NCBI RefSeq assembly: GCF_016863275.1
Contig: NZ_BOOO01000011.1
Location: 1-56,199, forward strand
Direction of reading: 5' to 3'
DNA: 56,199 bases
Origin: Planotetraspora mira
Lineage (GTDB): Bacteria; Actinomycetota; Actinomycetes; Streptosporangiales; Streptosporangiaceae
In this document: in pieces, positions 1 to 55,857 of the stretch
Layout: each line of letters starts with the position of its first letter
How positions within the stretch are numbered: the stretch's first letter is position 1
Translations under genes and position numbers: made by a program
Notes under the pieces: model-generated
What the model saw: only the letters and a program-made list of their open reading frames with translations
Told to the model about the DNA's origin: nothing
The model's database searches: none

Positions 1-54
1 GCGTGATCATGCACACCTCCGGAGAGATTGCACCTGACCGGCGGCGATGTCGCC

Positions 55-127
55 CGTGATCATGCACAGGTTCGGCCATTGAGTGGTTGAGCTGCGCGAA
101 CGCGATCCGTGATCATGCACAGGTTCG
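55..127 (+). repeat. Left arm of 73-bp inverted repeat
   Basis: This arm pairs with 400-472. The first 43 bases (55-97) are an exact inverted copy of 430-472. Bases 98-106 differ from their partner at three positions, and 107-127 match again apart from the outermost base. Each arm contains two motif units and the segment between them. Confidence 0.9.
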
Positions 128-399
128 TGGTTTTCCCGGATGACCTGGGGAAATTCTCCGCGTGATCATGCGCGCTTTCGTGGAAGCACGTGCGGGCCAG
201 GGCGTATGTGGTGCGTGATCATGCACTGGCTCCGGGTCGGCGATGCGTGCGAGATCTGATTATGTGTGATCAGACCGTGGGGACGCCTTGGACGCTGTCG
301 GTGCATGATCACGGAACGCGTGTTACCAGCTCAGGTGGGCGCTCGCCGAATCTGCGCATGATCACGCCTGGCATCTTTCCTGGTCAGTTCGCTGATGTA

Positions 400-472
400 C
401 GAACCTGTGCATGATCACGAATTGTGTTTGCGCAGCTCAACCACTCAATGGCCGAACCTGTGCATGATCACG
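400..472 (-). repeat. Right arm of 73-bp inverted repeat
   Basis: Inverted partner of 55-127. The three internal differences (421-429) all read T where the left arm predicts C on this strand. The arms are 272 bp apart, and the space between is filled by more diverged mirrored units. Confidence 0.9.
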
Positions 473-541
473 CTCGGGGTTGGGGCTGGTCGGTGGCACA
501 TTTCCGAACCTGTGCATGATCACGCCGGATGGGGTGGGGGG

Positions 542-1228
542 TTAGCGGAAGAGGATGTCCCAGTGGGTGGGTTCGTCGGCGTAGACGTCCAAGGCTGAGG
601 GGAGGCCGGGGGCCGGGGGCGGGCGGTAGAGGTCGGCGCCGTCTCCTCTGACCTTCCAGAAGCGGTACGTCTTGGTGATGAAGGAGTCGACGCACGTGTT
701 GTGCGCGATGTCGACCTTGAAGCCGTGCCTGTGGCTGAAATAGCCCCCCGCGTGGCCCTTCTCGGTCCCCCCGGTCACGATGATCGGGCATCCGCTTGAG
801 CGCTTCAGGTCGATGGCCTGCATGAGCGTGCCGTACCTGATGTCCTCCAGTGACGTGCAGGTGCGCCGGTCGGCGTCCACGCAGTGCCCGCTCGACTTCC
901 AGCCGAGGCCGGCGGACAGGAGGTCGTGCATGGCCTGTGTCTGGTTCATCCGCACGGCCGTGATGGAGGTGTCCCAGGTTCGGATCGTCGCGCTGAACGT
1001 GCCCACCAGCGACTCGGAGACGGCCGGTGGATCGGCCCCGAGAGGCAGCGACGGAGGTTGCGGCGCCTCGGCGGTCGACCGGGGGGCGCCCGCCGCGAGA
1101 GGGACCGAGCTGACCTTGGGCGTCGGCGTCCGGGAAACAGGTGTCGCCTCACTCGGTCGTGCGAGCAGGAGCAGTGCGAAGGTGCATGCCGCACCTGCCA
1201 GGACCGACCATGACGGATGTATGCCCAT
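542..1228 (-). CDS. Secreted M15-like (VanY/VanX-type) peptidase-fold protein
   Basis: A 228-residue protein with an N-terminal signal sequence (MGIHPSWSVLAGAAC, then a Leu-rich core ending near SEATP), a Pro/Ser-rich linker, and a C-terminal domain. Two motifs fit the zinc site of M15 D-Ala-D-Ala peptidases: SHRHGFKVD, matching H-x-x-G-x-x-x-D, and EPTHW near the C-terminus, matching the ExxHW element. It has conserved Cys residues (GHCVD, RTCTS, SGCP, NTCVD) that could form disulfides outside the cell. I chose the ATG at 1228 because GGGGAG lies just upstream and the signal peptide starts there; a longer reading from 1411 adds a non-secretory leader. It could be a peptidoglycan-trimming enzyme or a non-enzymatic relative. 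It is divergent from the TetR gene and ends beside the repeat array. Confidence 0.75.
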   Translation of the reverse strand: MGIHPSWSVLAGAACTFALLLLARPSEATPVSRTPTPKVSSVPLAAGAPRSTAEAPQPPSLPLGADPPAVSESLVGTFSATIRTWDTSITAVRMNQTQAMHDLLSAGLGWKSSGHCVDADRRTCTSLEDIRYGTLMQAIDLKRSSGCPIIVTGGTEKGHAGGYFSHRHGFKVDIAHNTCVDSFITKTYRFWKVRGDGADLYRPPPAPGLPSALDVYADEPTHWDILFR

Positions 1229-1354
1229 GTGCTCCCCGATGGCTGTTCGCCTGTTCGTGACGGGGGAGCTCGCCATGATGATCGATGCCACGTTCCGGGC
1301 GCGGTCATTCCTGCCAGAGGCCGGAATTTGCCGGTGACCGTCGATCATGTGGAT

Positions 1355-1365
1355 GGTCCATGACC
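1355..1365. promoter_or_regulatory. Small inverted repeat upstream of TetR gene
   Basis: GGTC-CAT-GACC is a perfect inverted repeat about 20 bp before the -10 of the TetR gene, with a second small palindrome CGGTGACCG at 1332-1340. Both lie in the divergent intergenic region and are candidate operators (inference). Confidence 0.35.
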
Positions 1366-1383
1366 GGACACGGGTGAAAGCCG

Positions 1384-1389
1384 TACAGT
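1384..1389 (+). promoter_or_regulatory. -10 element of a leaderless promoter
   Basis: TACAGT is followed by six bases and then the GTG start at 1396, with no Shine-Dalgarno sequence. This is the usual layout of leaderless actinobacterial genes. Confidence 0.55.
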
Positions 1390-1395
1390 GACGAA

Positions 1396-2043
1396 GTGGC
1401 CGAGAAGACACGCCAGCTGATCGTCGATACGGCCCTTCGGCTGTTCAAGGAGCGCGGTTTCGAGGCGACGACCATGCGTGCGATCGCCGCAGAAGCCGGC
1501 ATATCCGTGGGAAACGCCTACTACTACTTCGCGTCCAAGGAACAGCTCGTCCAGGCCTACTACGACCGGGCCCAGGCGGAGCACGAGGCGGCCTGCTGCG
1601 AGGTGCTGGCGGCCGAACGGTCCTTCGCCGGACGGCTCGGCGGTGTGCTCCGGGAATGGGTGCGGATCTCGGAGCCCTACCACGAGTTCGCCGTGAAGTT
1701 CTTCAAGCACGCGGCCGAGCCCACCAATCCGCTGAGCCCCTTCAGCCCGGAGTCGGCGCCCGCTCGCGAGTCGGCGATCGGCATCTACCGCCAGGTGGTC
1801 GACGGCTCGGAGAACCGCATCGACTCGGCGCTGCGCGAAGAGCTGCCCGAACTGCTCTGGTTGTTGTCGATGGGCATCGTGCTCTTCTGGGTCCACGACA
1901 CCTCGCCCGAGTGCGAGCGCACCTACCGCCTGATCGACCGTACGGTCTCCCTGGTGGACAGGCTCGTCGCCTTGTCGTACCTGCCGGGTATCCGAGGGGT
2001 GACCAGGGATTTCATCGACGTGGTCCGAGAGCTGCGGGCATGA
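1396..2043 (+). CDS. TetR/AcrR family transcriptional regulator
   Basis: A 215-residue regulator. The N-terminal helix-turn-helix (about residues 5-52) has the family signature: ALRLFKERGFEATTMRAIA, then GISVGNAYYYFASKEQL. The C-terminal part (55-215) is the ligand-binding helical domain and is not specific enough to name a ligand. The GTG start follows a -10-like TACAGT by six bases, suggesting a leaderless mRNA. It lies 59 bp upstream of the LLM oxidoreductase on the same strand, so it may control that gene, itself, or the divergent M15-like gene. Confidence 0.93.
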   Translation: MAEKTRQLIVDTALRLFKERGFEATTMRAIAAEAGISVGNAYYYFASKEQLVQAYYDRAQAEHEAACCEVLAAERSFAGRLGGVLREWVRISEPYHEFAVKFFKHAAEPTNPLSPFSPESAPARESAIGIYRQVVDGSENRIDSALREELPELLWLLSMGIVLFWVHDTSPECERTYRLIDRTVSLVDRLVALSYLPGIRGVTRDFIDVVRELRA

Positions 2044-55465: not shown

Positions 55466-55857
55466 CTGTGCGGGAGCGCCCTCACCCAGCTTCGCTTGGC
55501 ACGGCCGTCTAGCGACACGGGTCTATTGGCATGGGGTCTATTGATACGGCGTTCGTTGGCACCGGCCGTCGATTGGCATGGGCGTCGCTTGGCATGGGCG
55601 TCGCTTGGCACGGGGTCTATTGATGTGGCGGGAGCCCTCTAGTGACGCGGGCCGGGGCCCCATTGAATTACGTGCCGATAATTGGCTGGATTTGTCCGCT
55701 CTATTGGCCGCCTCTAGTGGAATCCGACAACGGTGTGCCGTTGATGTCCGGATATCTAACGACGGTCTTGCCTGAGAAATTGTCGCTAATGGCAATGGCC
55801 GGATCGCCCGATCCTGTGAAATTATTCAAACAGATTTTCGATTAGGGGGAGGGTGTC
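55466..55857. other. Gene-poor region with tandem repeats
   Basis: The left half is the degenerate 15-16 bp repeat. The right half (about 55660-55850) is AT-rich (29 of 60 bases in 55741-55800 are G or C). A 67-codon frame across 55642-55845 lacks a ribosome site and coding bias, so I do not call it. Confidence 0.6.
55483..55660. repeat. Degenerate tandem repeat, about 15-16 bp, around CAYGGGCGTCNNTTGG
   Basis: At least ten units run head to tail; two adjacent ones are identical (CATGGGCGTCGCTTGG at 55577-55592 and 55593-55608). Units vary in length (14-22 bp) and diverge to the right. Confidence 0.75.

Follow-up and report, generated by a model that had tools for sequence, protein, structure and literature searches.

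The window, that is, the whole 56,199-nt stretch of Planotetraspora mira DNA that was analysed, opens with two converging rows of an 11-bp core, CGTGATCATGC, spaced at 53 bp, and arrays of this kind recur in the genome of this soil bacterium. Both the core and its spacing were conserved while the DNA between the cores changed like neutral sequence, the arrays preferred convergent gene ends and avoided divergent ones, and they were inherited in place, with local duplication of units and with decay in one species. Judged from sequence comparison, the arrays may be binding sites for a putative lineage-specific, cooperative DNA-binding protein that would mark the ends of transcription units, a reading to which we give a little less than an even chance.

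In the mechanism that we propose, a putative sequence-specific oligomerising protein would bind the 11-bp core, with weaker fixed contacts inside the unit at TTCG (unit positions 17-20) and YGACCTG (34-40). Neighbouring molecules, placed five helical turns apart on one face of the DNA (53 bp at 10.6 bp per turn), would join in a row over three to five cores. Arrays mostly begin directly behind a stop codon and often consist of two rows that face each other from the ends of convergent genes; from this position, the row would most likely be a boundary of bound protein that closes a transcription unit and limits read-through or the collision of RNA polymerases. A double-stranded-DNA-binding protein that touches its neighbour is suggested because a linear word and a distance were kept, in both orientations, while the DNA between them drifted. 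As a precedent from the actinobacteria, BldC binds phased direct repeats cooperatively and head to tail, as described in the available part of PMC5859096. No array-binding protein was found, which counts against this mechanism; when the array-adjacent genes were compared for a clue to it, only one group spanned three distant lineages. The members of that group are presumably ABC-transporter ATPases.

The original prediction had placed eleven TGATCA-centred motifs at steps of about 53 bp. All eleven sites were confirmed (TGATCA at 4, 57, 110, 163, 216, 267, 306, 359, 412, 465, and 517), within a whole-window count of 40 TGATCA against 7.5 expected (0/100 shuffles reached 40), but they proved to form two converging half-arrays of five forward and five reverse cores, the site at 267 being only partial (Table 1). 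The steps were 53, 53, 53, and 53 bp in the forward half, 51 and 39 bp across the centre, and 53, 53, 53, and 52 bp in the reverse half, where the full cores gave the same values. Because of the nearby stop codon of the leftward gene, the reverse half-array lies downstream of that gene and in its sense. The left end of the array is cut off, since position 1 of the window is also the edge of a contig (G000:C11:1). The orthologous array of P. silvatica (L313) is longer by one forward unit on the left and shorter by one reverse core, and the stop codon of an aspartate-semialdehyde dehydrogenase gene is formed by its first core; as read in this orthologue, the window array lies between two convergent genes. 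The use of the TGA within the first core as the stop codon of the neighbour was also seen elsewhere, with 16 of roughly 94 array-adjacent 3′ ends ending 5 bases into the core. The two spacers compared in Table 1 are a copy between the two arms. Near-identical units in opposite arms were found at C1:279050 and C1:279366 of P. mira and, in the window, at about 55-107 and 420-472, as if template switching across the palindrome had copied them.

Table 1. Features of the double array at the left end of the window and of the adjacent gene
Feature	Position	Strand	Description
Forward half-array	2..224	+	CGTGATCATGC at 2-12, 55-65, 108-118, 161-171, 214-224; exact 53-bp steps
Centre of the double array	225..302	.	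One partial TGATCA at 267-272
Reverse half-array	303..524	-	Cores (GCATGATCACG on the + strand) at 303-313, 356-366, 409-419, 462-472, 514-524
Spacer of the second forward unit	66..107	+	4/42 differences from the reverse-unit spacer 420-461
Gene without Pfam or NCBIfam family	542..1228	-	Stop codon 17 bp from the array; start codon uncertain

Similar spacing was seen in a larger set of arrays. Among 74 arrays, defined for the step statistics as groups of at least three cores, 271 of 334 steps were exactly 53 bp and 300 were 52-54 bp, and three to five cores were present in 107 of the 131 half-arrays with at least two. Across 421 distinct units, the core was accompanied by further fixed blocks inside the unit, the layout being core, TTCG at 17-20, YGACCTG at 34-40, and a loose linker. 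As the selection of these units required cores with at most one mismatch and steps of exactly 53 bp, the near-invariance of the core among them is partly built in, and the fair test is the interspecies comparison within Planotetraspora given below. In some Planotetraspora units the TTCG block continued into TGATCA, producing a second partial core at +18 (steps of 18 and 35). Two results on helical phase count against the proposed mechanism: conservation inside the unit had no significant 10.5-bp period (p = 0.35), and the two halves were not phased to each other for centres of at least 30 bp (p = 0.89, n = 50). An apparent mutual phasing over 77 arrays (p = 0.0045) was rejected, as it arises only through a common short centre.

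The P. mira genome (9.03 Mb, 100 contigs) contained 583 exact copies of the 13-mer CGTGATCATGCAC, 296 forward and 287 reverse, and no copy of its reversed-letter control, so that the single site first implied became one of many. At about 3.75 exact copies per array, the value on contig C1, we estimate that P. mira carries well over a hundred arrays, roughly 150; 29 were located in the 821 kb sampled, about one per 28 kb. Arrays with CGTGATCATGCAC were present in all five Planotetraspora genomes examined, which are, besides P. mira (G000), those of P. thailandica (G001), G002 (probably P. phitsanulokensis), P. kaengkrachanensis (G003), and P. silvatica (G004); among these four, the numbers of exact copies were 151, 189, 505, and 654. 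The predicted recurrence at 52-53 bp with varied spacers was borne out in these five genomes, in Planotetraspora sp. A-T 1434 (G101), and in Microbispora sp. H11081 (G225). In the material examined, the motif was not confined to this locus, its spacing elsewhere was not random, and the DNA did not prove to be part of a decayed gene or transposon. A unique origin or partition site, which had also been suggested, does not agree with hundreds of copies lying mostly beside gene 3′ ends.

Outside the genus the distribution was patchy. Planotetraspora accounted for 64 of at least 80 loci among the matches listed in a scan of named contigs. Three matches of the genome scan (L029, L040, and L061) look coding by eye and were set aside as chance. 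In the family, 27 of 297 genomes (12 of 68 genera) had spaced core pairs, and in the class 14 of 246 did, with different flanks in the other genera; some of the class genomes had one or two matches that could be chance. Four of 15 Microbispora genomes were rich in them (G159, G225, G232, and G254), the remainder having 0-2 matches. Three of the 14 class genomes, all from one family (G393, G449, and G458), carried dispersed CGTGATCATGGCGTT...CGTGATCATG pairs at steps of about 30 bp, which seem to be a repeat of a different kind. In a genome from another family, a long head-to-tail run was seen (G091:C9:47884-48245); its 22-bp unit, about two helical turns, begins with the same core (CGTGATCATGCAGCCGCTCGGC).

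In our judgement, selection on the intergenic repeats of bacteria is difficult to show directly when the copies are too alike or too old. Here, the fast-drifting spacers between near-invariant cores provided an internal clock, by which sequence and spacing were scored separately, and both were found to be kept. In 10 orthologous arrays of P. mira and P. silvatica, changes were counted at 8/682 core and 252/1877 spacer positions, compared with 150/1155 in array-free convergent gaps and 5.7% at third codon positions; the spacers drifted at the rate of convergent gaps, and the cores changed about eleven times less. The exact 53-bp distance was kept in 42 of 46 cases in P. silvatica (2 changed, 2 unaligned) and in 42 of 55 in P. 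kaengkrachanensis (4 changed, 9 unaligned). Control windows of 53 bp in array-free convergent gaps kept their length in 8 of 31 cases (16 changed, 7 unaligned; 15 gaps) and 2 of 33 (20 changed, 11 unaligned; 17 gaps), respectively. Among alignable cases the difference was 42/44 versus 8/24 (p = 6e-8) for P. silvatica and 42/46 versus 2/22 (p = 3e-11) for P. kaengkrachanensis, in a test that somewhat favours the arrays, whose alignments were anchored by cores. Non-convergent gaps, where sequence evolution was slower too, kept their length in 276/319 and 250/358 cases, and against this background the spacing result was not significant in the former species (p = 0.20) and weak in the latter (p = 0.02), which weakens the case for our preferred reading. 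Because core and spacing were kept while the spacers drifted like convergent gaps, both appear, on sequence evidence, to be selected as DNA.

The arrays examined were intergenic and mostly beside gene 3′ ends. In the first set of 74 (own contigs and named Planotetraspora loci), 28 lay in convergent, 37 in tandem, and 8 in divergent gaps, and one, the window's own, had an unknown left neighbour. For the 821 kb of P. mira, 29 arrays with two neighbours, the window's array excluded, were compared with array-free gaps of at least 100 bp: 9/29 arrays versus 38/322 gaps were convergent (p = 0.008) and 3/29 versus 109/322 divergent (p = 0.011). In a four-genus pool of P. mira, Microbispora, G093, and G388, the latter regions having been fetched for their arrays and the background taken from the same regions, the values were 29/73 versus 49/451 convergent and 6/73 versus 157/451 divergent. 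The pool left out A-T 1434, G054, and the other Planotetraspora species, whose arrays are orthologous, and four arrays that a simple gene finder put inside genes (one in A-T 1434, two in Microbispora, one in G054) were dropped before the counts. Taken alone, Microbispora had no significant convergent excess (4/12 vs. 7/55, p = 0.10) and G388 no significant divergent deficit (2/13, p = 0.18). In A-T 1434, 5/13 arrays were convergent (p = 0.15) and 0/13 divergent (p = 0.03); both classes were empty in G054 (0/7 each), where the convergent zero speaks against a role at transcription-unit ends.

Distance from the stop codon in P. mira had quartiles of -4, 16, and 23 nt (median 16, n = 35), and distance from the start codon quartiles of 36, 62, and 130 nt. 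The median stop-codon distance was 14 in G388, -5 in Microbispora, and a looser 56 in G093, the last value being unfavourable to a boundary function. Among 66 half-arrays from three genomes, 43 followed a stop codon in sense and 23 faced a gene start, a minority that is likewise unfavourable, although one of the 23 (C1:278882) looks misassigned.

Most arrays were found at the same loci in related species, and unit number changed mostly by whole units. Gains and losses were also seen: the 27839 array is missing at the orthologous site in G002, and the 125743 array of P. thailandica at the orthologous sites of four relatives. At this array-free site, G002 and P. kaengkrachanensis fold a strong hairpin over two stop codons and the two others a weaker one, which is an anecdote only. 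Four Microbispora arrays have both neighbours adjacent in fetched Planotetraspora sequence; one, at a xanthine dehydrogenase-like/deaminase-like junction, has an array there as well, and the other three do not, which counts against the preferred reading. A second array neighbour common to the two genera, on one side only, is leuA; that two Microbispora arrays have array-flanking genes in common with Planotetraspora speaks for the preferred reading. In G002, 20 cores were left at 11 loci, compared with 72 in P. mira and 60 in P. kaengkrachanensis (65 at 10 loci in P. silvatica). Polarised on three genomes, core changes of 293 numbered 42 in G002, 7 in P. kaengkrachanensis, and 5 in P. mira; the 42 may be inflated by misalignment after unit loss, of which the core counts are independent. 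The decay in G002 is what the disappearance of a trans-acting factor might leave behind. That one species is losing its arrays also means that their function is dispensable, which counts against the preferred reading.

Core dialects differed among genera, and some Microbispora genomes had arrays in another sequence dialect. A-T 1434 and Microbispora retained the 53-bp unit with altered words, G054 had a 41-bp step with CAGGTCA, the reverse complement of TGACCTG, and G093 and G388 had looser spacing with modal steps of 37 and 34. Consequently, a phasing of five turns is a property of one lineage, not of the motif itself. The cooperative binding on one helical face that had been proposed from the window is in keeping with the conserved core and spacing and the drifting spacers; the mutually unphased halves and the 34-, 37-, and 41-bp steps of other genera set limits to it. 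More broadly, and with slightly less confidence, we consider it possible that convergent site arrays at gene ends form a genome-wide bacterial boundary or insulator system in several Actinomycetes genera, each with a putative dedicated oligomeric protein, in which each genus can have its own dialect although arrays may keep their positions, and in which the spacing of exactly five turns is confined to the Planotetraspora-Microbispora lineage. If the boundary interpretation is true, bacteria would have a novel means of closing transcription units, and we know of no described counterpart of such an insulator-like system. The patchy distribution, the dialects, and the one array-losing species offer a practical route to the protein by comparison of gene content.

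Each unit resembles an imperfect hairpin, and a structural RNA was among the first suggestions. The arms of the 421 units paired no more often than independent columns: the paired fraction was within 0.01 of independence at 10 of 11 stem positions, the exception being 22-32 (0.52 vs. 0.46, p = 0.08), and only stem pair 16-37 had a permutation p < 0.05 (0.022). With mutual information led by neighbouring columns and no stem covariation, a hairpin or structural RNA was rejected. An Rfam search of window 1-1500 found nothing in the array and one sub-threshold match outside it. A 3′ untranslated element read in sense, acting in processing, stability, or Rho-dependent termination, would fit the 43 of 66 half-arrays that follow a stop codon in sense, some with a terminator-like hairpin behind them; it is very improbable given the absent covariation, the 23 half-arrays in the other orientation, and the fact that a linear RNA signal has no obvious need of an exact 53-bp spacing. 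In four genera, the raw folding energies beside arrays were weaker than those of convergent ends that lack an array (p = 2e-6 to 0.018; G388 vs. all ends, p = 0.13). Corrected for base composition, the lack of hairpins, which could have favoured the boundary reading, was not significant (p = 0.052, 0.31, 0.087, 0.66, and 0.95; combined 0.17), and therefore the idea that arrays replace hairpin terminators was dropped and is not claimed here. Several half-arrays were followed by a strong hairpin, which counts against the preferred reading and implies that arrays need not replace terminators.

Two other explanations take the arrays as DNA. They could be anchors that fold or organise the chromosome, a row of protein bridging distant arrays or fixing supercoil domains, with 3′ ends as the places of least harm. 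The density of the arrays, the avoidance of divergent gaps, where promoters lie, the use of both orientations, and the loss tolerated in one species all suit this explanation, and enterobacteria offer parallels in BIME repeats, which bind gyrase, and a 3′-end repeat class that binds IHF, according to the available part of PMC2817692. It does not specifically predict the convergent preference or the short distance to the stop codon, and we regard it as unlikely, if still the most serious rival. Somewhat less probable again is a selfish REPIN- or MITE-like repeat spread by an unrecognised enzyme, of which only copies with core and spacing multiply. Such a repeat would be intergenic, of high copy number, patchy (27/297 family genomes), and gained and lost between species, as the arrays are, and the 60116 array, present in P. 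mira and P. silvatica and absent from G001-G003, is most like the 22283 array and possibly an older copy, although the unit match behind this case lies within background. One of 239 inter-locus unit pairs in A-T 1434 had 8 differences, which also points to spread. In P. mira, however, near-identical spacers (at most 8 differences in 42) made up 15 of 409 pairs within loci, opposite arms included, and 0 of 13,121 between loci (9% of the genome); the other three sets had 0 of 2,797 between loci. Recent turnover was thus mainly local. Orthologous arrays moreover stay put while their spacers drift and their cores do not. Inspection of alignments by eye showed no target duplications. A RAYT-driven REP system was rejected, as the Y1 transposase family PF01797 had no match in P. 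mira; of the genomes tested, 14 of 19 with arrays, P. mira among them, lacked it, and 9 of 16 array-poor ones had it. A transposon with a gene of its own, flanked by two separated arrays, was rejected as well, since the genes in such places look ordinary (presumably cobalamin synthesis, TypA, aldehyde dehydrogenase, and similar functions). A plasmid or phage origin was likewise rejected, as window 1-540 had no match in plasmids or phages; the one viral-contig match is an unrelated short tandem repeat.

Intergenic repeats that lie at gene ends and may bind protein are already known from BIME and related elements, and location at 3′ ends was also found here where gene ends were scored. The arrays are high-copy extragenic repeats like REP and REPIN elements (583 exact 13-mers; intergenic arrays), but the units lack a palindromic stem-loop with compensatory changes. 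Nor do they follow the CRISPR pattern of identical repeats with unrelated spacers, as the repeated word is 11 bp and the spacers have conserved blocks in common. Mycobacterial MIRU-VNTR loci are also actinobacterial tandem repeats, some of 53 bp and many intergenic. MIRU units are near-identical copies, whereas the arrays keep only the core and inner blocks and their spacers differ. The part of PMC4196917 available describes MIRU-VNTR typing only. BIME/REP elements and IHF-binding 3′-end repeats resemble the arrays in being extragenic, of high copy number, in both orientations, and variable in unit number, with a 3′-end class; in the available part of PMC2817692 they bind protein, as we suppose for the arrays. 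In contrast to BIME/REP, the arrays have an 11-bp linear core in place of the palindromic stem-loop, evolution keeps a 53-bp spacing, P. mira has no RAYT, and the sequence and phylum are unrelated. REPINs are inverted doublets, in which they resemble the double arrays. Pseudomonas REPINs are also intergenic repeat populations that persist (available part of PMC3116915); the arrays differ in that each arm holds several units, that RAYT and hairpin covariation are lacking, and that the P. mira sample contains no near-identical inter-locus spacers. Streptomyces BldC sites are likewise phased direct repeats of variable number, at which head-to-tail binding is possible, but, in the part of PMC5859096 available, they lie about one helical turn apart and at promoters, whereas the arrays have five turns, a GATC core, and positions at gene 3′ ends. 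Literature searches for the motif, host repeats, and 53-bp repeats, mostly in titles and abstract openings of the entries listed, yielded no description of the array, and a term search of PMC3733652 gave no passage either; within the reach of these searches, we found no account of the linear core, of a conserved spacing of five turns, or of dialects that differ by genus. Near the other end of the window, at 55567-55614, a 16-bp unit, CGTCGCTTGGCATGGG, is repeated three times head to tail (93% matches).
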